Shown here piece by piece: positions 23,316-39,275 of a stretch of 64,000 nucleotides of DNA. The DNA lies in the NCBI RefSeq assembly GCF_017743995.1, contig NZ_JAGHRB010000002.1, positions 248,001 through 312,000 on the forward strand. The letters are read 5' to 3'. The translations under genes were made by a program, and so were the position numbers. The stretch is from Ruegeria sp. R13_0. GTDB taxonomy: Bacteria > Pseudomonadota > Alphaproteobacteria > Rhodobacterales > Rhodobacteraceae. The notes under the pieces are model-generated. The model was given only the letters and a program-made list of their open reading frames with translations, searched no databases and was not told where the DNA came from. Numbering within the stretch: the stretch's first letter is position 1; every line of letters begins with the position of its first letter.

Positions 23316-23916
23316 CGCTGCGACCTCCTTGCTTGGTGCCTGTTGTCTGAATTCGATCGACGGTTGATTCCATCAGCATGTCTTCGGTCTCGCGCACGTC
23401 ATCCAGACGGTCGAGCCAGACGCCATTTCTCATCGCCAGCCAGCATCTTGCCATCTCGGCAAGCCCTTGCAGCATTAGCAACACACCAGCGACCGGGATC
23501 AGGGTTTTGAAGAAATAGATCTGAATTCTGGCGGGGCTGTTCCAGCTGACTTCTTCATAGCGCCAACTGTCCTTGGCGATTTCCCAGCCGTACCAGAACA
23601 GGGCAAACATGCCGGGGAAGAAAAAGATGATATACAGAACGAAATCGACCCGCGCCTGCCAGCGGACCGAGAAAAGGCGGTACAGCACGTCGCCGCGCAC
23701 ATGCGCGTCTTGCGCCAGCGCATAGGCCCCGGCCATCAGGAACAGGGCGCCATACATCTGAACCATCATATCGAACGCCCAGACGGTCGGCTTGTTCAGC
23801 ACGTACCGGACGAACACTTCGTAGGACACCGAAAGTGTCAGAATTAGGATGCACCAACCGAAGGCTTTGCCGACCCATTGGCTTAGCCCTTCGATGGCGT
23901 GGATTGTCTTGATCAA
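23308..23916 (-). CDS. TRAP transporter small permease (DctQ-like)
   Basis: The 202-residue protein has four hydrophobic segments and a DctQ pattern (WCILILTLSVSYEVFVRYVL, FMAGAYALAQDAHVRGDVLY). It is the small membrane partner of the DctM protein. It is somewhat longer than minimal DctQ proteins, with a hydrophilic tail rich in D, E and R. Confidence 0.9.
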   Translation of the reverse strand: MIKTIHAIEGLSQWVGKAFGWCILILTLSVSYEVFVRYVLNKPTVWAFDMMVQMYGALFLMAGAYALAQDAHVRGDVLYRLFSVRWQARVDFVLYIIFFFPGMFALFWYGWEIAKDSWRYEEVSWNSPARIQIYFFKTLIPVAGVLLMLQGLAEMARCWLAMRNGVWLDRLDDVRETEDMLMESTVDRIQTTGTKQGGRSDD

Positions 23917-23998
23917 GGTCAGTTCCTCGCCTGTTCCGCCCGCAGTTCAGAAAGCCGCGCACCGGCGCGACCTTCCGTTTTCAATGAGGTGTCAGGCC

Positions 23999-25093
23999 TC
24001 AGCCGAAGTAGTGCTTATACGCCAGCTTGTAGTCAGGCTGGTTGAGGTTGAGGTAGTTCATGACAGTCTTCGCATAGGCCTTCTGGCTGTCGACGACCTT
24101 GGCAAAGAACGGATCTTCGTTCGAGATCCTTTCGACCACAACATCCCAAGCCTCGAGCTGAGCCTGCATCACGCTGTCAGGCGTGCGATACACGTTGACA
24201 CCCTGCTCTTCGGCCAGCGTTACCAGATCGTCGGCGTAGCGCTTGGTGTTGTTCCAGTAGAAGTTCGAGTTCTCGGCCTCGGACGCGTATTTCAGGATCG
24301 CCTGAAGCTCGGGCGCAAGCGCGTTGAACTTGTCCTTGTTGAACGTGACCTCGAAGAACTCCTGGCTCTGGTGGAACGAGGCCAGGTGATAGTGCTTGGA
24401 CACGTCCTGCATACCAAAGTCGCGGTCGGATGTGGGGTTGTTGAACTCGGCCGCATCAATCAGGCCGGACTTCATCGCGGGCTGGATCTCGCCCCCGGGC
24501 AGCTGCACAACGGACATGCCCATCTCAAGCAGAACATCTGCCGCAAGACCAACTGTACGGTACTTCAGACCGTTCATCTGATCCGAGCTTGTGATTTCCT
24601 CTTTGAACCAACCCAATGGCTGTGCGGGCATGGGCGAGTTGAAGAATGAAACAACGTTCAGGCCAAGGATGCCCATCAGCTCGTCAAACAGTTCCTGACC
24701 GCCGCCATAGTTCACCCAGCCCAGAACCTCTTGGCTAGACCACCCAAAGCACGGACCCGTACCAAATAGCGATGCTGTTTTGGATTTCGAGTACCAGTAG
24801 GCCGGAACGTAATGCGCCGCGTCCAGAACGCCGCGGTGGACCGCGTCCTGCATCTGGCTGGTTTTCACAACCGAATTCACAGGCAGAAGTTCGATCGTCA
24901 GTTTGCCACCGGACATTTCGTTGACTCGGTTGACGTAGGATTGCGCGTTCTCAAGAAAGATGCCGCCGCCCCAGGCTGCCTGCATCTTCATTGTCGTTCC
25001 TTCCTGCGCATGGACAGCCGGAGCAGCAAGCGCACCAGCACCTACAACAGCGGAGCCGCGCAGAAAGTTTCTGCGGTTCAAAGATTTTGTCAT
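23999..25093 (-). CDS. TRAP transporter solute-binding protein (DctP-like), Tat-exported
   Basis: The 364-residue binding protein begins with a twin-arginine signal (RRNFLRG at residues 7-13, then a hydrophobic run ending in AVHAQ). It has DctP-family features: LLPVNSVVKTSQMQDAVHRG, KYRTVGLAADVLLEMGMSVV with the conserved arginine that usually binds a carboxylate, and LPGGEIQPAMKSGLIDAAE. This suggests a carboxylate-bearing cargo. It is the first gene of a seven-gene operon and is divergent from the IclR regulator. Confidence 0.92.
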   Translation of the reverse strand: MTKSLNRRNFLRGSAVVGAGALAAPAVHAQEGTTMKMQAAWGGGIFLENAQSYVNRVNEMSGGKLTIELLPVNSVVKTSQMQDAVHRGVLDAAHYVPAYWYSKSKTASLFGTGPCFGWSSQEVLGWVNYGGGQELFDELMGILGLNVVSFFNSPMPAQPLGWFKEEITSSDQMNGLKYRTVGLAADVLLEMGMSVVQLPGGEIQPAMKSGLIDAAEFNNPTSDRDFGMQDVSKHYHLASFHQSQEFFEVTFNKDKFNALAPELQAILKYASEAENSNFYWNNTKRYADDLVTLAEEQGVNVYRTPDSVMQAQLEAWDVVVERISNEDPFFAKVVDSQKAYAKTVMNYLNLNQPDYKLAYKHYFG

Positions 25094-25195
25094 GTTTCCT
25101 CCCTAGACTGGGCCGTCGCCGATATCCCTTCGGCATTGGCACCAAACCCGCCCTCCAGCGGATAGAATCTACGATAAGCCAGATTCGCGATTTTT

Positions 25196-25207
25196 CAAAA
25201 TATTTTG
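25196..25207. promoter_or_regulatory. Candidate IclR operator 1, palindrome CAAAATATTTTG
   Basis: A perfect 12-bp palindrome within a longer imperfect dyad (25192-25211) lies in the divergent region between the TRAP operon and the IclR gene. Its centre is about 25 bp from a second palindrome at 25219-25235. Regulator binding is inferred. Confidence 0.45.
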
Positions 25208-25218
25208 GAAACTCTTTC

Positions 25219-25235
25219 ATTTTGAGCGTCAAAAT
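25219..25235. promoter_or_regulatory. Candidate IclR operator 2, ATTTTGA-GCG-TCAAAAT
   Basis: A 17-bp inverted repeat with perfect 7-bp arms and a 3-nt spacer. Together with the palindrome at 25196-25207 it fits binding by a tetrameric IclR protein, which commonly uses two dyads. The surrounding 120 bp is markedly AT-rich. Confidence 0.5.
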
Positions 25236-25321
25236 AGGCGCAATTTATTGTTTTTAATCCATTTATTATTTTCATTTTTTTGCACTTGCGAACAAGCTAG
25301 ACTCTTTTCACAACAAGCCAG

Positions 25322-26173
25322 ATGACAAACGCGCCAAAAATGAACGAACCAAAAACAGTTGCAAGACGCGGGCGCCCACGCCTGAAAGCGAATGAAGAAA
25401 AGCCCGCAGGTTCTCTGGTCGGGGCGCTGGATCGTGGGATTCGTGTCCTGATTGCCATTGCAGATGCCCGGGGCGCGACGCTTGTCGACATCGCAAGAAC
25501 GACAGGCATTCCAACGGCGACGGCGCACCGGCTTCTGACCACGCTTCAACAGCGAGGAATGGTGGTTAACGATGCCGAACATGGTAAGTGGCGCGTCGGA
25601 CCGCAGGCCTATCGGATCGGCAACACGTTTGAGGAAGCCTCGAATTTGCTGGAGGTCGCACCAGCGGCGATGCGCAAGCTGTCCAAGGAAACCGGAGAGA
25701 CCGTAAATCTCGCCATCGAGGAAGGTGGGCAGCTGCTTTACCTGATCCAAGTCGAATCCGAAAACCCGATCCGCGCTTCGATCAAGAATGGAACTGCAGC
25801 CTACTTTCACACATCCGGTGTCGGCAAAGCCATTATGGCGTATATGGACGAGGCAGCGCTGGAAAAGCTATTGGCCCCTCTGACACTGGTTCAGCAGACG
25901 CCCAATTCGATCACGGACAAACAACAGCTCAAAGACGAGCTGCAGACATCCAGGCAAAGAGGATGGGCGATCGACGATGAAGAGCGTTTTCCGGGCCTGC
26001 GCTGTATTGCAGCGCCTGTCTTCGACTCGTTGGAGAATGTCGTTGCTGGCGTTTCAGTGTCTGGGCCCATCACCAGATTCCCCGACAACAAGCTTGAAAC
26101 CTTGGCCGCGTCAGTTGTTGAGACTGCGGCAAGCATCTCTGAAAAGCTTCGGAATTCCCCACCTCAGAGTTAA
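25322..26173 (+). CDS. IclR-family transcriptional regulator
   Basis: The 283-residue protein has a basic N-terminal tail (RRGRPRLKANEE), an IclR winged helix (LVDIARTTGIPTATAHRLLT) and the C-terminal IclR effector domain (KAIMAYMDEAALEKLLAP, WAIDDEERFPGLRCIAAPVF). It is divergent to the TRAP/amidase operon and probably represses it until the imported compound or a metabolite binds. An in-frame ATG at 25340 is an alternative start; neither has a strong ribosome site. Confidence 0.9.
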   Translation: MTNAPKMNEPKTVARRGRPRLKANEEKPAGSLVGALDRGIRVLIAIADARGATLVDIARTTGIPTATAHRLLTTLQQRGMVVNDAEHGKWRVGPQAYRIGNTFEEASNLLEVAPAAMRKLSKETGETVNLAIEEGGQLLYLIQVESENPIRASIKNGTAAYFHTSGVGKAIMAYMDEAALEKLLAPLTLVQQTPNSITDKQQLKDELQTSRQRGWAIDDEERFPGLRCIAAPVFDSLENVVAGVSVSGPITRFPDNKLETLAASVVETAASISEKLRNSPPQS

Positions 26174-26227: not shown

Positions 26228-27664
26228 TCAGACCGAGCCTTTTCTCATTCTGTGTGACAGCGCCTCAGCCCGAAGGTGATGCAGTCGGGGCAGATCTTCC
26301 CGCGCGAGGTTCCGGGTGCAATCGGGATCATTTTCGACATCAAAAAGCATCGGCTCAATATCCGTCGCGAAATGCGCAAGCCGGTATCCGTCTTTCTCAA
26401 ACGCAAGAGCGCGGCAATGATCGGGTGGGCACTGCCATGCGGTTTCAAAGCGCCCCTGGCCGTTTTCTGATCCAAGCTCAAGCTCGACCATGGCCTCTTG
26501 CCCGTAGGCTCGGTCTGGCGCCAAAAGGTTACAGCCCTGCATCTCGGAGGGCGAAGCAGCCCCAAGCACCGACAGAACCGTTGGGGCCACGTCAATCGAC
26601 TGGGTCAATGCGTCGATATCCTCGGGCTCAATATCCGGATGCCCGATCATTAGGGGCACGTGGGACGCGGCGCGGAACGGGGTCTGTTTTCCCCAAAGGC
26701 CAAGATCGCCCAGCATCTCTCCATGATCGGCGGTCAACACGATCAGCGTGTCGTCCAACTGACCCACATTTCGCAACCACTCAAAAAGTCGACCGATATG
26801 GTGATCGACCTCGGCGGCCAGCCCCAGATATGTGGACCGGCACAGCGCGATCTGCTCGGGCGCCATGGCATTTTGCTGCCCGTCAAAACCCCAGAACATA
26901 TCCGTGCCGCTTGGGCGGGAATGATAGGCTTCAAAGAACGGATGCTCAAAAGCGGCCTCAACCGGAGGCGGGATGTCCTGCGGGTTGATCAAATCGTTAT
27001 ACGGCGCGGGGGCAACAAACGGAGGATGCGGCCGGATATAGGTGACCATGGCAGACCATGGCTGTGATTTGCGAACGTCAAGATGAGCCAAAACCCGGTC
27101 GGTCAGATACGCGGTATCACTGTCTCGCGCATCATAAAGCGCCGGCCCTCCGAGAGTGTCGTTCTGAGGTCTGTAAAGCGCCGTCAGGTCGCCCGCATCC
27201 GGCACGTCATAGCCACGCGATCTGAGATGGGCGAGCCACTCCCAAGCTTCCTCGCGCATCTCGGTGACCTCGGTGATGCCCAGGATCGGCCCTGTGTAGG
27301 ACAGATGCGCCGGGTCATTCGGGTGTAGGTTCCTGGGATCGGGCTGCGTGTCCGTATAGCCGAACAGCAACAGCTCTCGCCCGATGGTCCGCAGCGCCGT
27401 TGCAAGGTTGGGGATATCGCGCCGCAGCGGAACGCCGTTCTGAACCGATCCGTGGTTCATGGCGTATTGGCCCGTCAGCAGGCTTGCACGGGCCGGACCG
27501 CAAGGCACCACAACCGTATGATGATTGCGAAAATGCACCGACCGCGCGGCCAGAGCGCGAATGTTGGGCAGCGGCACATGTCGCCCCAAAGCGCCCGTCA
27601 GAAGGTCCGCGCGGAACTGATCGATGACGATGAACAGAAAATTGCGCGGAGCCTTCTTCAGCAT
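26228..27664 (-). CDS. Sulfatase-superfamily phosphonate monoester hydrolase
   Basis: The 478-residue alkaline-phosphatase-fold enzyme has the formylglycine signature C-x-P-x-R as CGPAR at residues 55-59. The metal ligands are IDQFRAD near the start and TADHGEML further on. The context around the active cysteine (VPCGPARASLLTG, then MNHGSVQNGVPL), GYTDTQPDPR and YIRPHPPFVAPAPY closely recall the phosphonate monoester hydrolases of Rhizobium and Burkholderia. It lies 4 nt after phnX in a phosphonate operon. It probably frees 2-aminoethylphosphonate from an ester. A sulfatase or phosphodiesterase side activity is likely in this promiscuous family. Activation requires a formylglycine-generating enzyme encoded elsewhere. 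Confidence 0.8.
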   Translation of the reverse strand: MLKKAPRNFLFIVIDQFRADLLTGALGRHVPLPNIRALAARSVHFRNHHTVVVPCGPARASLLTGQYAMNHGSVQNGVPLRRDIPNLATALRTIGRELLLFGYTDTQPDPRNLHPNDPAHLSYTGPILGITEVTEMREEAWEWLAHLRSRGYDVPDAGDLTALYRPQNDTLGGPALYDARDSDTAYLTDRVLAHLDVRKSQPWSAMVTYIRPHPPFVAPAPYNDLINPQDIPPPVEAAFEHPFFEAYHSRPSGTDMFWGFDGQQNAMAPEQIALCRSTYLGLAAEVDHHIGRLFEWLRNVGQLDDTLIVLTADHGEMLGDLGLWGKQTPFRAASHVPLMIGHPDIEPEDIDALTQSIDVAPTVLSVLGAASPSEMQGCNLLAPDRAYGQEAMVELELGSENGQGRFETAWQCPPDHCRALAFEKDGYRLAHFATDIEPMLFDVENDPDCTRNLAREDLPRLHHLRAEALSHRMRKGSV

Positions 27665-27668
27665 GTGG

Positions 27669-28457
27669 TCAGGCCTCTGCGCTGTCCAGCTTACGGATCA
27701 GCGCGGGCAGATCGGCAACCGTGTCGATCACATAGTCCGCACCGGCGTCCTTCAGAATCTTGGTCGCGTGCTGGCGCAGCACGTCAACCTCTTCCGCGGA
27801 TAGCGCCTCCAGTTCCTCCGGTGTCTTGCCCACCGCATTGCCGGACAGGGATACGCCAACTGTCAGACAGCCAGCGGCGACACCCTCTTTGATGCCCGGT
27901 TCGGTGTCATCGACCTTGATGATCGCCGCAGGCGGGTAGGCCACCAGATCGACCATGCATTTATACATCCCCAGCGGCCCGGGTCGGCCTTCGGGCAGGT
28001 CGTCGGAACAGACCAGATTGTCCGGCTCATAGCCTTGAGCAGCGGCAACCGGCAGGACGTTCTCCATGATTGAGCGGGTGTAGCCCGTGGTCGACCCGAT
28101 CTTGAGACCCATGGACCGCAGATCATCAATCGCAGCTTTGCCACCCGGAACCAGATCCGCGTAGTCGGCGGCGACTTTTTCGTTCATCGGCACAAAGATC
28201 TCATAAACCTTGTCAACATCCTGATCGGAGGGCGCGTTGCCGTATTTTGCCTCCCACTGGGCGGCGATTTCGGGCATATCCATCATGGAGCGGATGTGAT
28301 CCCATTTGGGCGCGCCCATCGGTGCGCGGGCCTGTTCGATCGTGGCTTCGATGTCGAACTTGGCGAAGGCCTTCACAAACACGCCCATCGGCGCGAATGA
28401 CCCGAAATCGACCATTGTCCCCGCCCAATCAAACACGGCGGCTTTGAATTTGCTCAT
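27669..28457 (-). CDS. phnX: Phosphonoacetaldehyde hydrolase
   Basis: The 262-residue HAD-family enzyme splits phosphonoacetaldehyde into acetaldehyde and phosphate. The nucleophile is Asp10 in FDWAGT. The Schiff-base lysine that is unique to PhnX is visible as Lys51 in MGAPKWDHI. Further HAD blocks are GLKIGSTTGYTR and VDDTEPGIKEGVAAGC. It follows phnW by 14 nt with GAAAGGAAAG before its ATG, and takes the product of PhnW. Confidence 0.95.
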   Translation of the reverse strand: MSKFKAAVFDWAGTMVDFGSFAPMGVFVKAFAKFDIEATIEQARAPMGAPKWDHIRSMMDMPEIAAQWEAKYGNAPSDQDVDKVYEIFVPMNEKVAADYADLVPGGKAAIDDLRSMGLKIGSTTGYTRSIMENVLPVAAAQGYEPDNLVCSDDLPEGRPGPLGMYKCMVDLVAYPPAAIIKVDDTEPGIKEGVAAGCLTVGVSLSGNAVGKTPEELEALSAEEVDVLRQHATKILKDAGADYVIDTVADLPALIRKLDSAEA

Positions 28458-28471
28458 TGTCTTTCCTTTCG

Positions 28472-29668
28472 TCAGGCAGGTTCAACCTGTTTCTGTTTGA
28501 GTGTTTCGTCCGAGGGGCTGGCACTGTCGACCCCCATGTCACGCAGCACCTCGGCTGAGGTATCAACGACCGCTTGCATCACATGCGCATCGACCTGTCC
28601 GATGTGGCCGATCCGAAAGCTATCGGCTGCGGTCAGTTTGCCGGGATACAGGATAAATCCGCGCGCTTTCATGCGGTTGTAGAAGTCCGGGAAGGCAAAA
28701 CGCGGGTGATCCGGGCAGAAGAAGGTGGTGATGATCGGCGACAGCCACTCATCGTCCAGCAACGTGACAAAGCCCAGTTCACGCATCCCTTTGACCAGCG
28801 TCTTGCGGTTCTCAAGATACCGCGCGCCCCGTGCAGCGACGCCGCCTTCGGCCTCATGTGCGCGTAGCGCTTCGATGAAGGACGCGACCACATGTGTGGG
28901 CGGGGTAAAGCGCCACTGGCCTGTCTTCTCCATCGCGGCCCATTGGGCGTAAACATCCAGGCTGAGCGAATGGCTGTTGCCTTCCGCCGCCTTGATCGCA
29001 TCTGTTTCGGCAATCACGAACCCAAAGCCCGGCACGCCTTCGATGCATTTGTTGGCCGAGCTGACCATGGCCTGAAACGGGATCACATGCGGCTCGAGCG
29101 GGACAGCACCGAAGGCCGACATGGAATCGATCAGAAGCTTGCGGCCCGCCGCCTGCGTGGCGTCCGAGATCTCTTGCAGCGGGTTGAGGATGCCCGAGCT
29201 TGTCTCGCAATGGATGGCCAGCACATGCGTGATCGCGGGGTCGGCCTGCAAAGCCGCGGCCACCTGATTCCCGCGCGGCGGCAGATAGTCCCCCATGTCG
29301 ATCACGGCACAGTCGCGGCCAAGATAGCCCAACGTCTGCACCGCCCGTTTGCCATAGGCGCCGTTGCACAACACCAGAACCTTGCCGTCCTTGGGCACAA
29401 AGCTACCCAGCATCGCCTCGACCACGTAAGAGCCGCTGCCCTGCAAAGGCACACAGTCATAGCGGTCTTTGTCCTGCCCCAGAATATCCAACAGGCGACG
29501 ACGCAATTCGGCCGTCATGGCGCGGAAATCGGCGTCCCAGCTGCCCCAGTCGCGCAGCATCGCCTCTTTCACTGACAGAGACGTGGTCAATGGCCCCGGA
29601 GTCAACAGATACGGTTCGCCGAAATGCGGCGAGGGCAGTTTTTGGGTGTGATCAATCATGTCATTCAT
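28472..29668 (-). CDS. phnW: 2-aminoethylphosphonate-pyruvate transaminase
   Basis: The 398-residue class-V PLP aminotransferase transfers the amino group of 2-aminoethylphosphonate to pyruvate, giving phosphonoacetaldehyde and alanine. It opens with LLTPGPLTTSLSVKEAML and contains VPLQGSGSYVVEAMLGS and the cofactor lysine Lys207 in SSANKCIEGVPGFGFV. These are hallmark PhnW segments. The N-terminus is slightly longer than usual, with ATGs at 29668 and 29659. It sits between the ABC importer genes (87-nt gap) and phnX. Confidence 0.95.
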   Translation of the reverse strand: MNDMIDHTQKLPSPHFGEPYLLTPGPLTTSLSVKEAMLRDWGSWDADFRAMTAELRRRLLDILGQDKDRYDCVPLQGSGSYVVEAMLGSFVPKDGKVLVLCNGAYGKRAVQTLGYLGRDCAVIDMGDYLPPRGNQVAAALQADPAITHVLAIHCETSSGILNPLQEISDATQAAGRKLLIDSMSAFGAVPLEPHVIPFQAMVSSANKCIEGVPGFGFVIAETDAIKAAEGNSHSLSLDVYAQWAAMEKTGQWRFTPPTHVVASFIEALRAHEAEGGVAARGARYLENRKTLVKGMRELGFVTLLDDEWLSPIITTFFCPDHPRFAFPDFYNRMKARGFILYPGKLTAADSFRIGHIGQVDAHVMQAVVDTSAEVLRDMGVDSASPSDETLKQKQVEPA

Positions 29669-29755
29669 CTTCTATATGAAGGAATCCATAACATAGGTTT
29701 GAGCTATGGCTTGGCTACAGTTTTCCAGTGACCCCCGCAAGGGCATTTCGACCGG

Positions 29756-31690
29756 CTACGCGGGTTCCAGCGTCTTGATCCTTTCTGCGGTCACGTGCTG
29801 ATCCAGATGACAGGCCACGAAATGCCCCTCATCCACTTCCACCAGTTGGATCGGCTCATCCGAAGGCTGATCCGGGATGCGCAGCGACACCCCGTCCGGG
29901 CCATTCGAGGCAACGGGATGAATCATGTCGCCCTCAAAGCGGATCGGCTTGAATTCGGCGTCGGGGTCGGGATGCGGTACGGCGGACAGCAACGCCTTGG
30001 TGTAAGGGTGCTGCGGGTTGAAAAAGATCTTGTCGGTCGGGCCATATTCCATGAACCGCCCCCGATACATCACCGCCACCCGGTGCGAGATCTGTGCAAC
30101 CACGGCCAGATCATGCGCGATGAACAGGAAGCTGACACCCAGTTCGGCTTGCACGTCCTTCAAAAGCGCGACGATCTCGGCCTGAATCGACACATCCAGC
30201 GCCGAGACGCATTCGTCACAGACAACAAATTTGGGCTTGGACACCAGAGCGCGCGCAATGCAGATCCGCTGCCGCTGACCACCGGAGAACGCATGCGGGA
30301 AGCGGCGCAGATGCTCTAGGTCGATCTTGCAACGCGCCGCGATCTCGCGCACCCGTTCATCAATCTGGTCCCGGTCCGTCATCAAACCCGAAGCCACCAG
30401 CGGTTCGGCGATGATATCGCGCACCGTCATGCGCGGGTTCAGTGAGGAATACGGGTCCTGAAAAACAAGGCTCATTTCCGGGCGGAAGCTGCGTAGCAAG
30501 TTGCCACCAAGGGTGTGCAACTGAACCGGGCCTTCATGGAACGCCATGTTGATCTTGCTGCGCACCGCGCGCAGCTCGGCCTCGGAGGCGTGGGCAAGGT
30601 CGATATCGCCCTTTTTCTTGCGGTGAAAGATCACCTCGCCTTCGCTGGGATCAATGGCGCGCAGCATCGCGCGGCCAACGGTGGTTTTGCCCGATCCGCT
30701 TTCGCCAACGAGACCCACGGTTTCACCCTTGAGGATGTCGAAAGTGATGTCACTGACCGCGCGGACCGTTTCAACCTCGGTTCGGAAAAGTTTCTTCTTT
30801 CGCACCTCGAACGCGACGCCCAGATTGTGAACGTCAATCAGCTTGCGGACCTTCTTCAGTGGCGCGGGCGGGACGACCTTGTCCAACCTCGGAACCGCGT
30901 CCAGCAAGCGCTGAGTATAGGCCTGTTGCGGGTTGTTGATGACCTCGCGTACGGTGCCGCGCTCGACAATCTCGCCCTTATACATCACCGCGATGTCATC
31001 CGCGACTTGGGCCACCACACCCAGATCGTGGGTGATGAAAACCATGCTCATGCCCAGCTCGGCCTGCAGGTCACGCATCAGTTGCAGAACCTGCGCCTGA
31101 ATGGTCACATCCAGAGCGGTCGTCGGCTCATCCGCGATCAGCAACTGCGGACCAGCCGAGAGGGCCAGCGCGATCATGGCCCGCTGGCGCATGCCACCCG
31201 ACATCTCATGCGGGAATTGATCCACGCGGGCGGAGGGGTTGGTGATGCCGACCTTGTCAAGCATCTCAATCGCCAACTCGCGCGCCTGCCGTTTGTTCAG
31301 CCCGCGATGCAGCTGGATCGCCTCCATGATCTGGTTGCCGATGGTGTAGATCGGCGAAAAGCTGGCCATCGGCTCCTGAAAGATCATCCCGATCTCACCG
31401 CCGCGGATCACGCCCATACGTGGATCATGGGGGCGCACCTTGGCCAGATCGACGGATTTGCCGTCCTTCATGACGTAGTTGATCTCGGACCCCTGATCGA
31501 TGCTGGCAATGCCGGGCAGCAGCTGCATCACCGCCTTGGTCGACACGGATTTGCCCGAGCCACTTTCACCCACGATGCCAAGCGTCTTACCCTTCTCCAG
31601 CGAGAACGAAGCATCGCGAACCGGCTGAATCAGCCCTTCATCGGTGCGGAAAGACAGGGTCAGGTTTTTGACCTCGAGGATGTTTGCCAT
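29756..31690 (-). CDS. Dipeptide/oligopeptide-type ABC transporter ATPase, fused DppD-DppF
   Basis: The ~644-residue protein carries two complete ATPase modules. The first has [22 protein letters not shown] and ADEPTTALD. The second has [23 protein letters not shown] and a Walker B region CDECVSALD. In most Dpp/Opp systems these are separate proteins; here they are fused, so one polypeptide can power the importer. The second Walker B reads DEC where DEP is usual, a mild change. The ATG at 31690 overlaps the permease stop (TGATG). Its operon links transport to phosphonate breakdown. Confidence 0.92.
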
Positions 31691-32853
31691 CACTTTGCCT
31701 CCGCATAGGGGTCAGCCGCGTCGCGCAGCCCGTCGCCGATCACGGTGAAGGCCAGGACTGCCACCACCACGAACACGGCGGGAATGAACAGCCATGGGGT
31801 TTGCTCGATCGCGCGCACCGATTGCGCCTGTTGCAGCAGAACACCCCACGAGACCGACGGCGGGCGCAGGCCCAGTCCAACGAAAGACAGCGCGGTTTCC
31901 GACAGGATCATGTAGGGGAATGAGATCACAAGATCGACGATGATGAAGCTAGTGAAGCTGGGCAGCATGTGCTGACCGATGATGCGCTTGGGGCGTGCGC
32001 CGGCCAGTCGGGCCGCGACCACGTAGTCCTCATTCCGAATCGATAAAAGCTGAGACCGGATGCGCCGTGCCAGTGTCGGCCAGCCAAAGAGGCCAAGGAT
32101 CAATGTCATCGCAAAATAGACCTGCGTGGTCGACCACTCCTTGGGCATGGCGGCCGCCAGTCCCATGTAAAGCGGGATGATGGGCACCACCCGGATTACC
32201 TCGGTCACACGTTGGATGACGTTGTCGATGAGGCCGCTGAAATACCCGGCAATCCCGCCGATGAACAGCGCCAGCACGAAGGAGATCAGCACCCCGATCA
32301 CACCAATCGAAAGAGAGGTGCGCGTGGCATAGATGGTGCGTGAGAACACATCCCGCCCCAGATCATCCGTGCCCCAGAAATGGATTTTGGCGTCGGGGTT
32401 CTGCAAGCCGATCAGGTGGCGGTCGGTTGGAATAAATCCCAGAGCTTTAACCGGTTCTCCTTTGACGAACAGCCCCAAATAGTTGCGCACCTCAGGGTCG
32501 GGCACCGAGACGGCCCGCAGGGTCACCGGATCACGCTCGGTCTTGGTGCCGTTGATAAAGGGCACGACAGAGCATCCGTTATCGTCGCAAAAGCGCGGGA
32601 TTTGCGGCGGTCCTTCGATATAGGAGGTATCGCGCGTGACTGGGCCATAGGGGGCGACAAATTCGGCAAACAATCCGGCCAGCGCCATCAGCCCCAACAC
32701 GATCGAGGCATACATCGCGGCGCGGTGCTTTTTGAAGCGCCACCAGATCAGGGTCCATTGCGAGGCTGAATAGTATTTCAGCAGCTGCTGACGTTCTTTT
32801 TCCGCAGCCCGACGCTGGGCCGGGGTCATTTCGGGATCTGTCATATCGGTCAT
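31690..32853 (-). CDS. ABC transporter permease, DppC-like
   Basis: The 387-residue inner-membrane protein has the DppC N-terminal cytoplasmic leader and first helix (YASIVLGLMALAGLFAEF), a periplasmic loop with three cysteines (FCDDNGCSVV), and the EAA-type loop (RLAGARPKRIIGQHMLPSF). The periplasmic loop is long for the family. It pairs with the DppB-like permease encoded 1 nt upstream. Confidence 0.92.
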   Translation of the reverse strand: MTDMTDPEMTPAQRRAAEKERQQLLKYYSASQWTLIWWRFKKHRAAMYASIVLGLMALAGLFAEFVAPYGPVTRDTSYIEGPPQIPRFCDDNGCSVVPFINGTKTERDPVTLRAVSVPDPEVRNYLGLFVKGEPVKALGFIPTDRHLIGLQNPDAKIHFWGTDDLGRDVFSRTIYATRTSLSIGVIGVLISFVLALFIGGIAGYFSGLIDNVIQRVTEVIRVVPIIPLYMGLAAAMPKEWSTTQVYFAMTLILGLFGWPTLARRIRSQLLSIRNEDYVVAARLAGARPKRIIGQHMLPSFTSFIIVDLVISFPYMILSETALSFVGLGLRPPSVSWGVLLQQAQSVRAIEQTPWLFIPAVFVVVAVLAFTVIGDGLRDAADPYAEAK

Positions 32854-32854
32854 G

Positions 32855-33847
32855 TCACGCCCCCAGCTTGATGCGCGGGTCCAGCCACGCCAACAGCAGA
32901 TCGGAAAGGAAATTCATGAACACGATGGCAAAGGTCAGCATCAGCAGGATCGCACCCGCCACGTTCATGTCGAGGTCGAGATACGCTTTCAGCAGCAGCT
33001 CACCCAGTTCGGTCAGGCCCAGAACCACGGCCACGATCGGCAGCTCGGAAAAGATCCGGTTCACGTCAAACCCGATGGTCGAGACGACCGGGTTGATCGC
33101 CAGCCGGGCCGGGTATTTGATCAGCAGCTTCCGCTCGGGCACACCGCGCGCGCGGGCTGCGGTGACAGACAGTTTGTTCAGCTCATCCGACATGGTCGCG
33201 CGCACGGTCTGGATTTGGTAGGCCACTGCCGACCAAGCTAGAACCACCGCGGGCAACCACAGGTGTTTCAGCATGTCCCAGACCTTGGCCGCGCTCCACG
33301 GGGCGTCTTGATATTGGGCCGAGAACAAGCCGCCGATATCCGCCCCGAACCAGCGGTTGGCGAAATACAGCATAACCAGCGCCAGCAGAAAGTTCGGCAG
33401 CGCGAGCCCCAGATACGAGAAAATCGTCAGACCATAGTCAATGGCCGAACCGCGCCGCACGGCCGCATAGATCCCAACGGGGATTGAGATCAGATAGGTC
33501 AGGATCAGCGTTGCAAACAGGATGCCCGCGGTCAGCCAAACCTTGTCACCGATCACCTTGGTGACCGAGGTTTCAAAGGCGAAGGCCTGCCCAAAATCCC
33601 AGCGCAGAACGATACCGCCAATCCAGTCGAAATACCGAAGCAACATGGGCTTGTCCAAACCCAGCTCCTGACGGATGGCTTGCACATCGGCCTCGGTTAC
33701 GTTGACCCCGGTGCCCGAGTATTTCCGAAACGCGTAGCGGTCGGCGTAGTCTCCGGGCGGGATTTCCATGATCAGGAATACCATCATCGACACCAGAAGC
33801 ATCGTGATGGCCATTCCTACTAGTCGTTCGGCGGTGAATCTGAGCAT
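32855..33847 (-). CDS. ABC transporter permease, DppB-like
   Basis: The 330-residue protein starts MLRFTAERLVGMAITMLLVS, with a helix followed by the periplasmic PPGDYADRYAFRKYSG segment typical of DppB. Near the C-terminus it has the EAA loop (ARARGVPERKLLIKYPAR). The start at 33847 matches the family; the frame is open upstream to 33901. No strong ribosome site was seen, so coupling to the preceding binding-protein gene is possible. Confidence 0.9.
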   Translation of the reverse strand: MLRFTAERLVGMAITMLLVSMMVFLIMEIPPGDYADRYAFRKYSGTGVNVTEADVQAIRQELGLDKPMLLRYFDWIGGIVLRWDFGQAFAFETSVTKVIGDKVWLTAGILFATLILTYLISIPVGIYAAVRRGSAIDYGLTIFSYLGLALPNFLLALVMLYFANRWFGADIGGLFSAQYQDAPWSAAKVWDMLKHLWLPAVVLAWSAVAYQIQTVRATMSDELNKLSVTAARARGVPERKLLIKYPARLAINPVVSTIGFDVNRIFSELPIVAVVLGLTELGELLLKAYLDLDMNVAGAILLMLTFAIVFMNFLSDLLLAWLDPRIKLGA

Positions 33848-33936
33848 GCGTCTGTCCCGAAATTGCAGCTTGGACTGCAAACTCCGGGGCGTCTGCTGCA
33901 AACGCCCCGGAGGAAAGTGTCAAACCCGTATGGGGG

Positions 33937-35988
33937 TTACTGTTCCAGCCACCACTGCGAGGGGCGGTAGGGGTAGGTCCAGTAGAAGTCGTAGGTTTTC
34001 GACTTGATGGGTTTGACGTTCTGCAGGTCGTTGCGCCACAGGAAGGGGGCAACGATGTCACCGACAGTGCCGATCTTCAGCATGTTGTCCGTGTGGATCT
34101 TGACGATTTCCGCACCGATTTCGTTGCTGGTGTCCGAGCCGAACTCAGCCTGGATGAAGCGCTCGCTCAGCTCCCACAGCTTCTGGATATCGGCTGGGGG
34201 TTCGACGCCTTCGGCCCCATCGGTCTGTTTCCAAGTGGCCCATTTGGCACCGGTGCCCGGGTTGAAGAAGTCACCAAAGGGCGGCACGAAAACGGTGGTA
34301 TCCTGCGAGATGGTCGGGCCGGCATTACCGTCATACTTCCAGGTCGTCAGGTCCAGATCGTTGTTGTTGCCCGATGCGCGGTATTCGTCCGAGGTAACCT
34401 CTTTCAGATCGACGCGCACGCCCACGGCGGTCCAGTAGTCCCGCACCAGCTCCATCATTTTCACCGGCACACCCTGCGAGGAATAGACCAGGCGAATGAC
34501 CAGAGGCTTGCCGTCCGGGCGCTCCAACGTGCCGTCGCCGTCGCTGTCGCTCAGGCCCATTTCGGCCAGAAGGGCCTTGGCGCCCTCGACATCATAGGCA
34601 ATGTCCTTGGTCAGCACGTCGTCCGAGATGAACGATACGGTCTTGGGCTCGGCCGGAACACCCTGCATCGGAGTGCCCTGACCCAGATAGACGATCTCAT
34701 TGATCTCGTCGCGGTTCATCGCCAGCGACATGGCGCGGTTGAAGCGCACATCGTTGAAGATTTCGCGCAGTACTTCGTCGTTGTGGGTGCGGTTGAACGA
34801 GAAGAACACGTTTTCACCCAGGGTCGGCGCGAACTGGATTGTGTAGCCGCCCTTGGCTTCGTTCTCTTTCAGCAGCGGGAAGTCCTCCAGGAAGATCGCC
34901 TGCTGTTTCCAGACAACCTCTCCATTCATGACCTTGAGGTTCTGAACTTCCTTGTCGCTGACATAGCTCTCAACGATTTCGTTGATATAGGGCAGCTGAT
35001 TACCTGCAGTGTCGACCTGGTGGAAATACGGGTTCGCCACCAGCTTGCGGCCTTCCGAGGTCTCTTCGACAACGATGTGGCTTTCGAGGGTCGGCACAAC
35101 CGCACGGCCGATGGCAGCGGCTTTGTCGGCGTCTTTCAGCAGCGGCGATGGAACGTCTTTCCAGTCCGAACCGCCATAGTAGAAATCAACCGCTTCGGCA
35201 CCGTTGGCGAAACCGTATTCCTGCGCCAGCGCATCGGCGTTTTCGTTGTACTTGGGCATGAACTGGCCCAGGAAATGCTTGGGCTGGAACGGTTGGCCAT
35301 AGTCGACGGCAAAACGGTTCAGGATGCCCGGCGTCGGCACCGGGAAAGTCATGCGGACGGTCACGTCGTCAACCGCCTCAACCTTGATCGGCTCGCCTGC
35401 AAACAGCCAGCGATCCGGAGTTTTTTCCAGAATGTCGGTGTTCAGCAGCAGGTCATTGTACCAGAAGGCAACATCTTCGGCGGTGAAGGGTTCGCCGTCA
35501 GACCATTTGTGACCTTCACGCAGCGTGATCGTCAGAACGGTTTTGTCTTCGTTCCAGTCCCACGCCTTGGCGACGTTGGGAACAACCGTCTGCAAGTCAT
35601 CCGCATAGCGCACAAAGTTCACATGGCGCACAGACAGAAGGTCCGACGTGCCCGACTCCGTCGCTTTCGAGATGCCGGTGATCGCGCCGCCATATTGGCC
35701 GATGCTCTCATAGGGCATCACAACCAGAGGCTCGGCGGGCAAGCGGTCTGCAACAACGGCCAGGTCGGCGTTGCCAAGGATTTTGCCGTTCAGTTCCGCA
35801 ATCGCCGGGTTTTCCGAGAATTCCAGGGTGCAGGATGCGGTCGATTGCAGCTCGGCCAGTTCCAGCTGCTGCGGGAACGCGGGCTCTACCCCCATTGGAT
35901 CAGCGACGGTGGCGACCGGGCAATTTGCCAGCGCGGGAACCGCAATCATTGTTGCGGCAGTGGACATCAGGATATGACGGATCGTCAT
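33937..35988 (-). CDS. Family-5 extracellular solute-binding protein of a Dpp-type ABC importer
   Basis: The 683-residue periplasmic protein begins with a Sec signal (MTIRHILMSTAATMIAVPALA). It contains SBP_bac_5 blocks: LREGHKWSDGEPFTAEDVAFW, FNDVRFNRAMSLAMNRDEIN and a DSDGDGTLERPDGKP loop. It is clearly longer than classical DppA/OppA (about 510-540 residues) because of an N-terminal extension and internal insertions. It is the first gene of the transport-phosphonate operon. A large ligand such as an aminoethylphosphonate ester or conjugate would fit, but this is inference; peptides remain possible. Confidence 0.9.
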   Translation of the reverse strand: MTIRHILMSTAATMIAVPALANCPVATVADPMGVEPAFPQQLELAELQSTASCTLEFSENPAIAELNGKILGNADLAVVADRLPAEPLVVMPYESIGQYGGAITGISKATESGTSDLLSVRHVNFVRYADDLQTVVPNVAKAWDWNEDKTVLTITLREGHKWSDGEPFTAEDVAFWYNDLLLNTDILEKTPDRWLFAGEPIKVEAVDDVTVRMTFPVPTPGILNRFAVDYGQPFQPKHFLGQFMPKYNENADALAQEYGFANGAEAVDFYYGGSDWKDVPSPLLKDADKAAAIGRAVVPTLESHIVVEETSEGRKLVANPYFHQVDTAGNQLPYINEIVESYVSDKEVQNLKVMNGEVVWKQQAIFLEDFPLLKENEAKGGYTIQFAPTLGENVFFSFNRTHNDEVLREIFNDVRFNRAMSLAMNRDEINEIVYLGQGTPMQGVPAEPKTVSFISDDVLTKDIAYDVEGAKALLAEMGLSDSDGDGTLERPDGKPLVIRLVYSSQGVPVKMMELVRDYWTAVGVRVDLKEVTSDEYRASGNNNDLDLTTWKYDGNAGPTISQDTTVFVPPFGDFFNPGTGAKWATWKQTDGAEGVEPPADIQKLWELSERFIQAEFGSDTSNEIGAEIVKIHTDNMLKIGTVGDIVAPFLWRNDLQNVKPIKSKTYDFYWTYPYRPSQWWLEQ

Positions 35989-36059
35989 GACAACCTCCAG
36001 GTTTGTTCGACGATCCGCTTAAGGGGCTATTGTAACAGTTTAATAATAAATGCGAGATT

Positions 36060-36074
36060 ATAGCTTTAAACTAT
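36060..36074. promoter_or_regulatory. Candidate LysR operator ATAG-N7-CTAT
   Basis: An ATAG-CTTTAAA-CTAT dyad with the T-N11-A form lies 72-86 bp before the binding-protein start and just after the LysR stop. The region between it and the gene is AT-rich and can hold a promoter. It is the natural place for an activator site for the phosphonate operon. Confidence 0.45.
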
Positions 36075-36081
36075 GGTACGG

Positions 36082-36981
36082 CTATTCGCTAACGCTCGCC
36101 AAAGTTTCTTGGGTAATTTCATAGAATTGCCGGACGGTGGCCGACGCAGCCATTGCGGGCATCGAAACCAAAAACTGATGAGCGCTTAGTTTTTGATCGT
36201 TAATCGGGATGAATTTCAGGTCCTTGTCGGCCGTCACCAACTCCGATTCGAAGCCTACCCCCTCGCCGACGCCAGCCCGAACCAGCGAGGTGATCGACCC
36301 CCAGGAGCCGAGGCCCAAAATGGTATCCGGCGCGATACCAGCCTCGGAAGCTGCGCGTTCAAACACCTGACGCGTACCGGCATTCGGCTCGCGCTGTATC
36401 AGCCTCAGTTTCGCGACATCGGCCCAACTGAGGCTTTCGACGTCCCGCAACGCGCCTTCGCTTTGGGCGACGATGCCGATCCGGAACGAGGAGACCTTTT
36501 GGCAATGCATCGTCTCCAGCGGTTCGCGCGCGGTGACAAAGGCGACATCCAGATCACCGGTGCGCAGCAAAGGCAGCAGGTCGAGGCTGGCCATGGCACG
36601 CGCATTCAGGGTGACGCCTGGATAGGTCTGGATAAATCGGGCAATAGGCGGCATGGCGATCTGATAGGTTGAATAACCCACCCAAAAGCTGCCCGACTTC
36701 AGGTCTTTCCGCGCGCCAATCGCCAGATCGACCTCAGACTTCAACGCCAGCAGAGCCTTGATCTGCGGACGCAGTGTTTCAAACATTTCGGTGGTTTCAA
36801 TACCCTTGTTGCCCCGCCGCAAAAAGCGACACTCGGTTTGCCGCTCCAAGGCGACGATCAGGTTGGAAACCGTGGGTTGAGAGACGCCCAACTCTTCTGC
36901 CGCAGCCGTGAAACTGCCGGTGCGGGCAACCGCCTCAAGCGCTTTCAGCTGGCGAATGCTCGGTTCTACGTTGCTGGGCAT
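36082..36981 (-). CDS. LysR-family regulator of aminoethylphosphonate-type operon
   Basis: The 299-residue LysR protein has a helix-turn-helix at residues about 10-65 (LKALEAVARTGSFTAAAEEL, then SQPTVSNLIVALERQ) and an effector domain with LGSWGSITSLVRAGVGEGVG. It resembles the LysR proteins often found with phnW/phnX. The ATG at 36981 has AAGGA 8 nt upstream, which excludes a longer in-frame start at 37077. It lies on the same strand immediately before the importer and phosphonate genes and probably activates them. Confidence 0.85.
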   Translation of the reverse strand: MPSNVEPSIRQLKALEAVARTGSFTAAAEELGVSQPTVSNLIVALERQTECRFLRRGNKGIETTEMFETLRPQIKALLALKSEVDLAIGARKDLKSGSFWVGYSTYQIAMPPIARFIQTYPGVTLNARAMASLDLLPLLRTGDLDVAFVTAREPLETMHCQKVSSFRIGIVAQSEGALRDVESLSWADVAKLRLIQREPNAGTRQVFERAASEAGIAPDTILGLGSWGSITSLVRAGVGEGVGFESELVTADKDLKFIPINDQKLSAHQFLVSMPAMAASATVRQFYEITQETLASVSE

Positions 36982-37244: not shown

Positions 37245-38021
37245 ATGCTCCAACGCCTGCCACTTCTGGTTTTCTCCGATCTCGATGGTACTCTGCTGAA
37301 CCATCACGACTATAGCTGGGACGCGGCGCAACCCGCGCTAAAACGGCTTCGGGACATTGGCGCGGGGCTTGTGCTGGCCAGCAGCAAAACCGCTGCCGAG
37401 ATTGTTGGGTTTCGCCAAGCCATAGGCTTTTCGAACATGCCGTCGATCGTTGAAAATGGTGCTGGCATTCTGGCACCCGGCCACCCAGAAACCGACGGAC
37501 CCTCTGAATATCTGAACATTCTGAATATCCTCCGACACCTCCCACCCGGCTTTCGTGGCTTCGCAGATATGAGCGTGCAGGAGGTGAGCGACAGGACCGG
37601 GCTTGATCTTGTTGCGGCAGAGAAAGCCCAAGATCGGCATTTCAGCGAACCGGGCGTGTGGGATGGCGCGCCAGAGGATCTAGGTACGTTTATCTCCGAA
37701 GCCGGGCGGTACGGTCTAAAGGCCAGGCAAGGCGGTCGATTTCTTACTTTGTCGTTCGGAAAGACCAAAGCGGACGCCATGTCCGACGTGATCCGACAGT
37801 TGCAACCGGAAAGAACCATCGCGCTTGGCGACGCACCGAACGATCTGGAAATGATCCTTGCCGCCGACACTGGTGTCGTTGTCGCAAACCGGTATGGTGC
37901 ACCCATTCCACTCCAGGCACCCGAAGCCGAGCGGCGGATATTCAGAACCACACGCGAAGGCTCCGAAGGCTGGGCCGAGGCCATTCTGACCCTCACTGCA
38001 CCCGATCACAAAGACAGTTAA
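37245..38021 (+). CDS. HAD phosphatase: glucosyl-/mannosyl-3-phosphoglycerate phosphatase
   Basis: The 258-residue Cof/MPGP-type HAD phosphatase has motif I FSDLDGTLLNH, motif II LVLASSKTAAEI, the IVENGAGIL block typical of this subfamily, and motif IV LGDAPNDLEM. It removes the phosphate from the sugar-3-phosphoglycerate made by the synthase encoded 18 nt downstream. Given that partner, glucosyl-3-phosphoglycerate is the likely substrate and glucosylglycerate the product. Mannosyl-3-phosphoglycerate phosphatase is the usual automatic name for this fold. Confidence 0.85.
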   Translation: MLQRLPLLVFSDLDGTLLNHHDYSWDAAQPALKRLRDIGAGLVLASSKTAAEIVGFRQAIGFSNMPSIVENGAGILAPGHPETDGPSEYLNILNILRHLPPGFRGFADMSVQEVSDRTGLDLVAAEKAQDRHFSEPGVWDGAPEDLGTFISEAGRYGLKARQGGRFLTLSFGKTKADAMSDVIRQLQPERTIALGDAPNDLEMILAADTGVVVANRYGAPIPLQAPEAERRIFRTTREGSEGWAEAILTLTAPDHKDS

Positions 38022-38039
38022 CCAAGACAGGCAGCCCAA

Positions 38040-39275
38040 ATGGCAGACTTCCATCAGAACGGAAACATCACCACGCTTCACAACCTGCGAAGCCGCCCGG
38101 CCGAGCATCTGGTGCACGAAATCTCTGTCTTTGCCGAAACGCGCAAGGTGACGTTGATCCTGCCCTGTCTCTACTCAGAACTGGAAGGTCCGGCCCTTGC
38201 GGGAATTATCGACGAGCTGTCCAAGGTCAGCTACCTGCATCGCATTATCATCGGGCTCGATCAGGCCGACGCGGAACAATACCAACGCGCCAGAGCGTTT
38301 TTCGACCGTTTGCCCCAGAAGCATGTTGTGATCTGGAACAGCAGCCCCCGGATGTTGCAGCTGGAAGAACGGCTGCGCGACCTTGGCCTTGCACCACAGG
38401 AACCCGGCAAGGGCAAAAACGTCTGGTCCTGTATCGGCTACCTACTGGCCTGCGCCGACAGCTCGGTCATGGCGATCCATGACTGCGATATCGTGACCTA
38501 CAAACGGGATATGCTCGATCGGCTGGTCTACCCCGTAGTCAACCCAACCTTCCCGTTCCAGATGGCTAAAGGCTTTTATCCGCGCATCGGCAATGGCAAC
38601 CTGAACGGCCGTGTCACGCGGCTTCTGGTCAGCCCTCTGCTAATCGCGCTGAAAAAGGTGATCGGAGATCGGGACTACATCGACTACCTGCGCAGCTTCC
38701 GCTATCCACTGTCAGGCGAGTTTGCTATTCGCACACCGACCCTGCCCGATCTGCGCATCCCGTCGGACTGGGGGCTGGAAATCGGCGTTCTATCTGAGGC
38801 CTGGAGGAACCTCGCACCCAAATCCGTCTGCCAGGTCGAGATTGCCGACAATTACGATCACAAGCATCAGAAGCTGTCGCCCGAGGATGCCAACACCGGG
38901 CTAAGCCGAATGTCCACCGACATCTGCAAAGCCATCTTCCGCAAACTGGCGGCAGATGGCACAGTGTTCACCACCAACACATTCCGGACCCTCAAGGCGA
39001 CCTATTATCGCTCGGCTCTGGATTTGCTCGAGGGGTATTATACCGATGCAAAGATGAACGGCCTGGCGCTTGATCGCCATACCGAGGAAAAGTCGATCGA
39101 GCTCTTTGCCGAAAACATCATCCGCGCCGGGCGGGTCTTTTTGGAGAACCCCCATGAGACGCCGTTTATCCCGACATGGAACCGGGTCCATGCCGCAGAT
39201 GCCGAGTTCCTGCACCACCTGAGCGAAGCCGTCGCGCTGGATCTGGAAGAGTTCACACAGCAGGGGCGTTCGTGA
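38040..39275 (+). CDS. gpgS: Glucosyl-3-phosphoglycerate synthase (GT81-type glycosyltransferase)
   Basis: The 411-residue GT-A glycosyltransferase has an N-terminal VTLILPCLYSELEGPALAGI nucleotide-sugar segment, the GKGKNVWSCIGYLLA block, and the metal-binding DxD at Asp148-Asp150 (HDCDIVTY). Later blocks are LSGEFAIRTPTLPDLRIP and SDWGLEIGVLSE. This matches GpgS proteins that join a nucleotide-activated glucose to 3-phosphoglycerate. With the phosphatase it makes glucosylglycerate, a compatible solute used under salt stress or nitrogen limitation. Its 3' end overlaps the convergent phosphorylase gene by 23 bp. Confidence 0.85.
   Translation: MADFHQNGNITTLHNLRSRPAEHLVHEISVFAETRKVTLILPCLYSELEGPALAGIIDELSKVSYLHRIIIGLDQADAEQYQRARAFFDRLPQKHVVIWNSSPRMLQLEERLRDLGLAPQEPGKGKNVWSCIGYLLACADSSVMAIHDCDIVTYKRDMLDRLVYPVVNPTFPFQMAKGFYPRIGNGNLNGRVTRLLVSPLLIALKKVIGDRDYIDYLRSFRYPLSGEFAIRTPTLPDLRIPSDWGLEIGVLSEAWRNLAPKSVCQVEIADNYDHKHQKLSPEDANTGLSRMSTDICKAIFRKLAADGTVFTTNTFRTLKATYYRSALDLLEGYYTDAKMNGLALDRHTEEKSIELFAENIIRAGRVFLENPHETPFIPTWNRVHAADAEFLHHLSEAVALDLEEFTQQGRS

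Follow-up and report, generated by a model that had tools for sequence, protein, structure and literature searches.

An operon joining a Dpp-type importer, PhnW, PhnX and a phosphonate monoester hydrolase: a probable unit for the catabolism of 2-aminoethylphosphonate esters

The locus described here raises the question of what a phosphonate monoester hydrolase (PMH) does within an operon for the breakdown of 2-aminoethylphosphonate (AEP). The window, that is the whole stretch of 64,000 nucleotides that was analysed (G000:C22:248001-312000, from the 4.68 Mb draft genome of a marine-type bacterium), holds at positions 26228-36981 eight open genes, all on the minus strand, which encode in turn a LysR-type regulator, a family-5 periplasmic binding protein (SBP), two permeases, a fused ATPase, PhnW, PhnX and the hydrolase. 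The evidence suggests, with a probability that we put at about 0.6, that the operon serves the breakdown of an O-ester of AEP, which would be brought in by a Dpp-type importer, opened by the PMH and then degraded by PhnW and PhnX. The genes are as follows.

36082..36981, minus strand: regulator of the LysR type, which opens the operon; top NCBIfam match TIGR03339 phn_lysR, 158 bits
33937..35988, minus strand: SBP of 683 amino acids, family 5 (Dpp/Opp/Nik type); PF00496, 201 bits
32855..33901, minus strand: permease of Dpp/OppB type; PF00528 and PF19300; start at 33901 (TTG) or 33814
31690..32853, minus strand: permease of Dpp/OppC type; PF00528 and OppC_N
29756..31693, minus strand: fused DppD-DppF-like ATPase; PF00005 twice (two ABC domains) and oligo_HPY
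28472..29668, minus strand: phnW, 2-aminoethylphosphonate:pyruvate transaminase; TIGR02326, 481 bits against a cut-off of 400.8
27669..28457, minus strand: phnX, phosphonoacetaldehyde hydrolase; TIGR01422, 336 bits against a cut-off of 220
26228..27664, minus strand: PMH of the D-type group (D-PMH); best solved relative 4upk, E 3.7e-115; signature residues present

In the proposed pathway the AEP ester would be captured by the periplasmic SBP and carried into the cell by the Dpp-type ABC importer; there the cytoplasmic D-type PMH would cut its P-O-C bond, with AEP and an alcohol as the products. By the reactions established elsewhere for their families, PhnW would then pass the amino group of AEP to pyruvate, yielding alanine and phosphonoacetaldehyde, and PhnX would convert the latter into acetaldehyde and phosphate, such that AEP breakdown would be a supply of both phosphorus and nitrogen; the signal to which the LysR regulator responds is probably one of the pathway intermediates. 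The cargo of the importer, the reaction of the PMH in vivo and the order of the steps are what we infer here; the identities and order of the genes, the PMH-type active site and the coupling of SBP and PMH across genera and orders are, at the level of sequence, directly in evidence.

An operon of these genes, in this order on a single strand and with small gaps, had been described in a sequence-only reading of the window, and it is confirmed. The intergenic distances lie between -4 and 122 bases: 93 between the LysR and SBP genes, 122 between the SBP and permease genes (35 if the upstream TTG start is used), 1 between the permeases, -4 between permease and ATPase, 87 between ATPase and phnW, 14 between phnW and phnX, and 4 between phnX and the hydrolase gene. 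The LysR reading frame has alternative starts at 37077 (longer) and at 36981, the latter being the end given in that reading; the protein matches TIGR03339, the AEP-associated LysR family, best of all, yet below the curated cut-off of 341 bits, and an alignment of the LysR-SBP gap with the region upstream of LysR showed by eye no convincing shared operator. Adjacent phnW and phnX genes, each above its curated cut-off, indicate AEP catabolism of the PhnW-PhnX type, and a PF00496 SBP with two BPD permeases and an oligo_HPY ATPase makes up an importer of the Dpp/Opp type, the fused ATPase being represented by two separate genes in many relatives. The arrangement is not a matter of chance, since the gene order recurs: it is identical in G020 (protein identity 61-93%), G053 (50-90%) and G046 (30-79%), and is repeated in L099, whose contig begins within the SBP gene, as well as on pSC52_2, a plasmid of Rhodobacteraceae bacterium SC52, where no LysR is annotated directly upstream. 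This plasmid, from a sea-cucumber gut isolate, is mobilizable and bears the operon from SBP to PMH.

The assignment of the hydrolase follows from its active site. Its best solved relative carries the name 'phosphonate monoester hydrolase' and, judged from alignments, is the R. pomeroyi DSS-3 protein, 46% identical to the window PMH; the closest named PMH, from a Rhodobacteraceae metagenome-assembled genome (MAG), is 68% identical. The key positions are D15, Q16, C55-x-P-x-R59, N76, Y103, D105, H213, D313, H314 and K326, and both the nucleophile motif, C55-G-P-A-R59, and the metal ligands D15, Q16, D313 and H314 are invariant among 21 aligned sequences. Arylsulfatases have His at the site flanking the nucleophile (His-A), where PMHs have Asp in most cases or Thr in the RlPMH group, together with Tyr in place of a nearby Lys (Lys-A) (PMC5488252; papers are cited throughout for the parts of their text consulted). 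The window protein has Tyr (Y103) at Lys-A and Asp (D105) at His-A, where RlPMH has Thr, and is therefore by sequence a D-PMH. Across 159 aligned proteins the His-A position is D in 145, T in 8, S in 1 and a gap in 2, and is H in 3, the control arylsulfatase-like rows, which also have Lys at Lys-A. Equivalence to PehA, the name that a plasmid record gives to RlPMH, is not claimed, the match to the NCBIfam PehA equivalog NF045661 being 349 bits against a cut-off of 900.

Though the PMH carries a Cys motif of the formylglycine type, the host genome has no match to FGE (PF03781) or anSME (TIGR03942); it has eight sulfatase-family matches (L001-L008), and the four motifs found in these by pattern are all of the Cys type, C-x-P/A-x-R. 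Likewise, in the family sample described below, 31 of the 39 genomes with a PMH are without a strong FGE match, and strong FGE (at least 199 bits) shows no association with PMH, the frequencies being 8 of 39 where PMH is present and 38 of 159 where it is not (p 0.83). Unmodified relatives retain some activity (PMC6189696). As judged by eye, the SBP has a Sec-type N-terminus and the hydrolase has no signal peptide, which would place it in the cytoplasm; this combination fits a sequence of import followed by hydrolysis.

Thirteen members of the clade to which the SBP belongs show 47-88% identity. Its nearest solved relatives are 5ipw and then SPH1118 (7ver, 258 bits), which we take to be a pectin-oligosaccharide binder, and the solved relatives as a whole include proteins named as oligopeptide-, alpha-galactoside- and chitin-oligosaccharide-binding. 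It is a PF00496 protein and not an SBP of the AepX/phnS2 type (TIGR03261), and AccA-type proteins match it weakly (24-31 bits), which leaves it outside the AccA clade. Elsewhere in the host genome there is no AepX above cut-off, the top TIGR03261 match being 50 bits against 393, and there is a C-P lyase (PhnJ). The predicted SBP model was of low confidence (pLDDT 69, pTM 0.55) and was left out of fold searches.

The coupling of PMH and SBP was assessed in 198 genomes spread evenly over the family (197 genera). Presence thresholds were placed at gaps in the scores after the lists had been viewed (PMH 239 vs 166 bits, SBP 665 vs 284, PhnW 556 vs 349), with PhnW counted at 64% identity or more, and a limited number of candidates was scored per genome, as in the class sample below. 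Matches to PhnW below the gap, in G152 and G018, were dropped from the co-occurrence and phnW-locus counts and kept in the SBP-PhnW distance counts, and G184, with two listed copies each of PMH, SBP and PhnW, was counted once. PMH is present in 39 genomes, the SBP clade in 36 and PhnW in 40; PMH and SBP occur together in 30 of the 198 where 7.1 are expected (Fisher p = 1e-21), PMH and PhnW in 30 (7.9 expected, p = 3.5e-19) and SBP and PhnW in 29 (7.3 expected), in tests that take genomes as independent, such that shared ancestry remains in the counts even with nearly all genomes differing in genus. The genes are also neighbours. PMH lies within 15 kb of SBP in 23 genomes (of 30 with both and 39 with PMH) and within 20 kb of PhnW in 18 of the 39, and SBP lies within 15 kb of PhnW in 16 of 36 SBP genomes, all 16 being among the 23 with SBP near PMH. 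As controls, 20 of the 110 other sulfatase-family matches listed are in SBP-bearing genomes, and a single one of these 20 is within 15 kb of SBP; none of 21 more distant family-5 SBPs is within 20 kb of PMH or PhnW. The expectation of the sequence-only reading that the PMH gene and this SBP clade would be found together beside phnW/phnX in other genomes is thus borne out.

The importer that accompanies phnW is informative in this regard. In the DISCRIMINATING test, were the Dpp system merely to import AEP, the presence of PMH should be independent of which importer serves phnW. At the 40 phnW loci of the family sample (12.5 kb on either side), PMH is found at 13 of 14 loci with the Dpp SBP, at 1 of 11 with AepXVW and at 2 of 15 with neither (Dpp vs AepXVW, p = 3.5e-5). 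The fourteenth Dpp locus, in G184, has a PMH 13 kb from SBP and 20 kb from PhnW, and among the loci with neither importer two (G093, G123) have both SBP and PMH just past the 12.5 kb limit and at least four (G007, G030, G095, G133) are cut by contig ends. In other words, PMH tracks the Dpp importer and not AepXVW, and therefore the cargo of the Dpp-type importer is probably what the PMH cleaves, rather than plain AEP.

Around PMH the phosphonate genes vary, four modules adjoining it: PhnW-PhnX, PhnW-PhnY-PhnA, a PbfD-type oxidase with PhnX, and C-P lyase genes. The oxidase (TIGR03364) with PhnX was found by family scan in L074, L106 and L107, by tblastn in L203 and L204, and from annotation in Pararhizobium qamdonense; the C-P lyase genes are PhnH in G194 and PhnL in G008. 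Among 109 distinct PMHs from PMH-seeded loci (nine duplicates removed, the arylsulfatase-like L076-L078 left out, some contigs short), 38 have a phosphonate module within 11 kb, 51 have Dpp genes and 27 have both. On a PMH tree built by a quick method, with 47 of 113 inner branches starred, the minimum number of changes is 16 for module linkage, 14 for Dpp linkage and 6 for module type (X, YA or C-P lyase), gains and losses being indistinguishable in these counts. G076 has, in an operon of this kind, a PMH lineage 34-35% identical to that of the window, with phnX on one side of the gene and on the other an SBP that belongs to the window clade (81%). In L044, L074, L107 and L118 there is an overlap of 4 to 14 bases between the reading frames of phnX and PMH. 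Genes of a DAO/GCV_T-fusion cluster also lie beside the Dpp operon or AEP clusters in L050, L079 (two copies, of which one was family-scanned), L093 and L098; such a fusion could demethylate N-methylated AEP.

Beyond the family, SBP is present in 8 of the 289 genomes of a class sample, all 8 of which have one of the PMHs found in 50 of the 289 (1.4 expected, p = 5e-7); apart from the window's own genome, the SBP and PMH starts are within 7 kb in 5 of 7 and on different contigs in the other two. PhnW occurs in 33 of the 289 genomes, 21 of them with PMH (5.7 expected, p = 1.4e-10). The family and class samples are the only unseeded ones, PMH-seeded loci over-representing PMH by design. Among the best 80 named PMH loci, some of which share contigs with the family sample, the nearby genes, as called in all fetched loci by a home-made codon-score caller, include SBP in 34, PhnW in 16, PhnX in 11 and an Na/Pi carrier in 19, and 39 loci, several of them on short contigs, are without SBP, PermB, PhnW, PhnX, PhnA, PhnY, PbfA and AepW. 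Several Hyphomicrobiales are among the named loci, and a Granulosicoccus MAG (Gammaproteobacteria by name) has PhnY, PbfA, the Dpp operon, PMH, AepX and AepW. Among CHARACTERISED relatives, R. johnstonii 3841 has genes for a family-5 SBP, two ATPases and two permeases after that of the crystallised RlPMH and on its strand, an arrangement shared by R. leguminosarum 248; at a Pseudoroseomonas PMH locus a single ATPase is annotated along with an SBP and two permeases, and the set in G292 is similar. The SBP beside RlPMH is outside the window SBP clade, and the link between Dpp-type transport and PMH is therefore not confined to a single lineage.

A second pairing of PMH with an importer is seen in Roseobacter loci (L119, L141, L142, L146, L151, L157, L159, L165 and L170), where the importer is a PotABCD-like ABC system (SBP_bac_8), often with an Na/Pi carrier, an EamA protein or a DeoR regulator and with zero phn markers. 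Six family genomes without PMH have Dpp SBP loci (L079-L084), and the SBP of L080 and L083 adjoins an EnvZ-like kinase and a metallo-beta-lactamase-fold protein, as does that of L089, whose genome has a PMH elsewhere. In the window itself the operon is flanked at 37245-41031 by mannosyl-3-phosphoglycerate-phosphatase-, glucosyl-3-phosphoglycerate-synthase- and sucrose-phosphorylase-like genes, each below its cut-off, which are likely a glucosylglycerate set, and at 20611-26173 by an amidase, a TRAP transporter and a BhcR-like IclR regulator.

Several observations weigh against an ester of AEP as the cargo. The host genome is without AepX above cut-off, and the operon has no other importer of plain AEP; 6 of the 36 SBP genomes are without PMH, four of them (G063, G113, G127, G195) also without PhnW; and within 11 kb 47 of the 109 PMHs have neither Dpp genes nor a C-P module. 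Indeed, the R. pomeroyi DSS-3 enzyme itself is without such neighbours within 12 kb. Of 40 class loci fetched around 58 PMH matches other than the window's own, 5 having been picked for a nearby SBP, 12 hold at least one of a family-5 SBP, a C-P gene and ugp genes, and the other 28 hold none of these, family-5 SBPs of both kinds included. Few pairs were informative in a tree-paired test that set Dpp linkage against linkage to phosphonate genes, and its result was not significant (median p 0.69). The import and hydrolysis of an AEP ester, as put forward in the sequence-only reading, is accordingly upheld in part: the PMH residues, the co-occurrence and co-location of SBP and PMH, the dependence on importer type, the four modules and the signal peptides speak for it, and the many PMH genes without such neighbours speak against it.

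Within the ester reading the alcohol is most likely glycerol, the ester being glyceryl-AEP, a deacylated phosphonolipid head group (an identification that we hold at somewhat less than even odds), or else a phosphonoglycan sugar. In G476 (L197:8319-12172) PMH stands between a LysR of the AEP type, whose best match is TIGR03339 with 290 bits against the cut-off of 341, and ugpB-ugpA, encoding a glycerol-phosphate importer; in G230 (L226) PMH and ugpB-ugpA are accompanied by a LysR related to this one (34%, outside the family scan). L152 has a ugpA-like gene in the vicinity of PMH, glpD is near PMH in Aureimonas AU20 (L183) and L073, and a DeoR/GlpR-like cluster is represented in 9 of 61 clustered loci. 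The ugp, glpD and DeoR/GlpR-like neighbours are suggestive of glycerol, with room for sugar esters also. A broader and distinctly speculative idea is that D-type PMHs could be ester-openers of phosphonate catabolism by origin, the Asp flanking the nucleophile, to which the text consulted assigns no clear function (PMC5488252), reading the protonated amine of AEP, and that uptake of glyceryl-AEP with the Dpp importer could be widespread.

Other cargoes have to be weighed against an AEP ester. The one to which most weight is given, unlikely as it is, has the importer taking phosphodiesters such as glycerophosphoethanolamine and glycerophosphocholine along with phosphonate esters, with PMH as the phosphodiesterase in vivo and its neighbours marking a mixed scavenging of organophosphorus. 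PMHs do cleave phosphodiesters besides phosphonate monoesters (PMC5649143, PMC5488252), the ugpB and ugpA genes of G476 and G230 and the glpD genes of Aureimonas and L073 would suit such a diet, and near PMH in the best 80 named loci there is an inositol-phosphatase-like gene (HisN cluster) in 5 and the Na/Pi carrier in 19. However, the sole downstream enzymes in the window, PhnW and PhnX, act on phosphonates in an operon without a phosphatase, and the LysR proteins of G476 and G230 are, respectively, nearest to the AEP-associated TIGR03339 and related to that one. Less probable again is the import of an intact phosphonoglycan fragment, an oligosaccharide bearing AEP that PMH would free from its sugar; the large size of the SBP and the place of SPH1118 entries as its second-best solved relatives favour this, as do the phosphonate esters on polysaccharides of high-molecular-weight dissolved organic matter (HMW DOM) (PMC5649143), but no glycoside hydrolase is found among the recurrent neighbour clusters that were family-scanned, other neighbours not having been scanned.

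We think it improbable that the Dpp system imports free AEP and that PMH is an accessory for occasional esters made or freed elsewhere. The lack of AepX above cut-off in the host means that an AEP importer is otherwise missing from an operon that includes phnW and phnX, and G064 and G133 have SBP and PhnW without PMH; yet PMH is at 1 of 11 phnW loci served by AepXVW against 13 of 14 served by Dpp, G038, G069 and G073 have SBP and PMH without PhnW, and the solved relatives of the large SBP are named for oligopeptides and oligosaccharides. As for a sulfatase acting on a sulfated amine and incidental to the operon, the Pfam family is indeed Sulfatase, and plasmid records call a homologue sulfatase-like; against this the protein has Tyr at Lys-A and Asp at His-A, where by the rule of PMC5488252 the control arylsulfatase-like rows have Lys and His, and the PMH-SBP co-occurrence statistics hold in both the family and class samples. 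With Y103/D105 and the PMH signature residues in place the sulfatase assignment was rejected, and such a role appears very improbable indeed.

The catabolism of an AEP ester, if true, would give the PMH family a testable natural job and phosphonate surveys a new importer type, and it would suggest what the Asp of D-PMHs may do. Catalytic promiscuity has been well studied in PMHs, and the conjunction of PMH, importer and phosphonate module would supply a concrete substrate class to assay; on the broader and speculative idea given above, uptake of glyceryl-AEP could be a source of reduced phosphorus unseen by marker genes such as aepX and phnD. Phosphonates occur built into lipids and glycans (PMC8316502), and the published AEP genes in the literature consulted act on free or N-/C-modified AEP, such that the opening of esters by bacteria is a gap. 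The view that PMHs are without a settled natural substrate or role holds to the extent that none is named in the literature consulted, and has to be qualified in that Sosa 2017 had already proposed a phosphonate-ester role (PMC5649143). In the open-licence literature consulted, subscription literature being mostly outside its scope, no link of PMH or of a Dpp-type importer to phnW/phnX was found: PMC4744853, one of two papers with PMH and AEP terms alike, has PMH in its reference list only, PMC3840354 is without 'monoester' or 'sulfatase', and the main texts of PMC8154272, PMC10590968 and PMC12366243 do not use the words 'sulfatase' or 'alkaline phosphatase' at all.

Set beside known systems, the window shares its phnW/phnX core with the PhnW-PhnX pathways that include PbfA, PbfB-D and PbfF, the ancillary AEP-cluster enzymes in print (PMC8154272, PMC10590968, PMC12366243). 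Those Pbf enzymes widen the range to hydroxy- and N-methyl-AEP, and PMH would widen it likewise; unlike them, the extra enzyme here, an ester hydrolase, belongs to the alkaline phosphatase superfamily. AepXVW, AepP, AepSTU, PhnCDE and PhnSTUV are, like the window importer, tied to phosphonate use, but AepX, AepS and PhnS are SBPs of the pfam13343 type (PMC8316502), whereas the window SBP is a PF00496 protein with Dpp-type permeases. Catalytic and signature positions are conserved between the window PMH and both the D-PMHs (SpPMH, 4upk) and the T-PMHs (RlPMH, BcPMH), for which no natural substrate is named in the literature consulted; the difference is that the window PMH gene lies within an AEP operon. 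The nearest prior idea is that of Sosa 2017, in which alkaline-phosphatase-like enzymes, PMH being a named candidate, were postulated to free phosphonates from marine polysaccharide esters (PMC5649143). For the Sulfitobacter HMW DOM degraders of that study PMH is the phosphonate-freeing candidate, as it is here, in a context of C-P lyase and polysaccharide, and the text consulted mentions neither a dedicated importer nor a tie to PhnWX. The best precedent for a logic of import and then cleavage is the agrocinopine (acc) system. AccF is presumably of a different fold from PMH, and AccA only weakly matches the window SBP (24-31 bits). In its workings the agrocinopine system is nonetheless alike, an SBP and ABC importer taking up a phosphodiester whole and the cytoplasmic AccF cutting it (PMC4526662), with the difference that its cargo is a sugar phosphodiester and that of the window operon would be a phosphonate.

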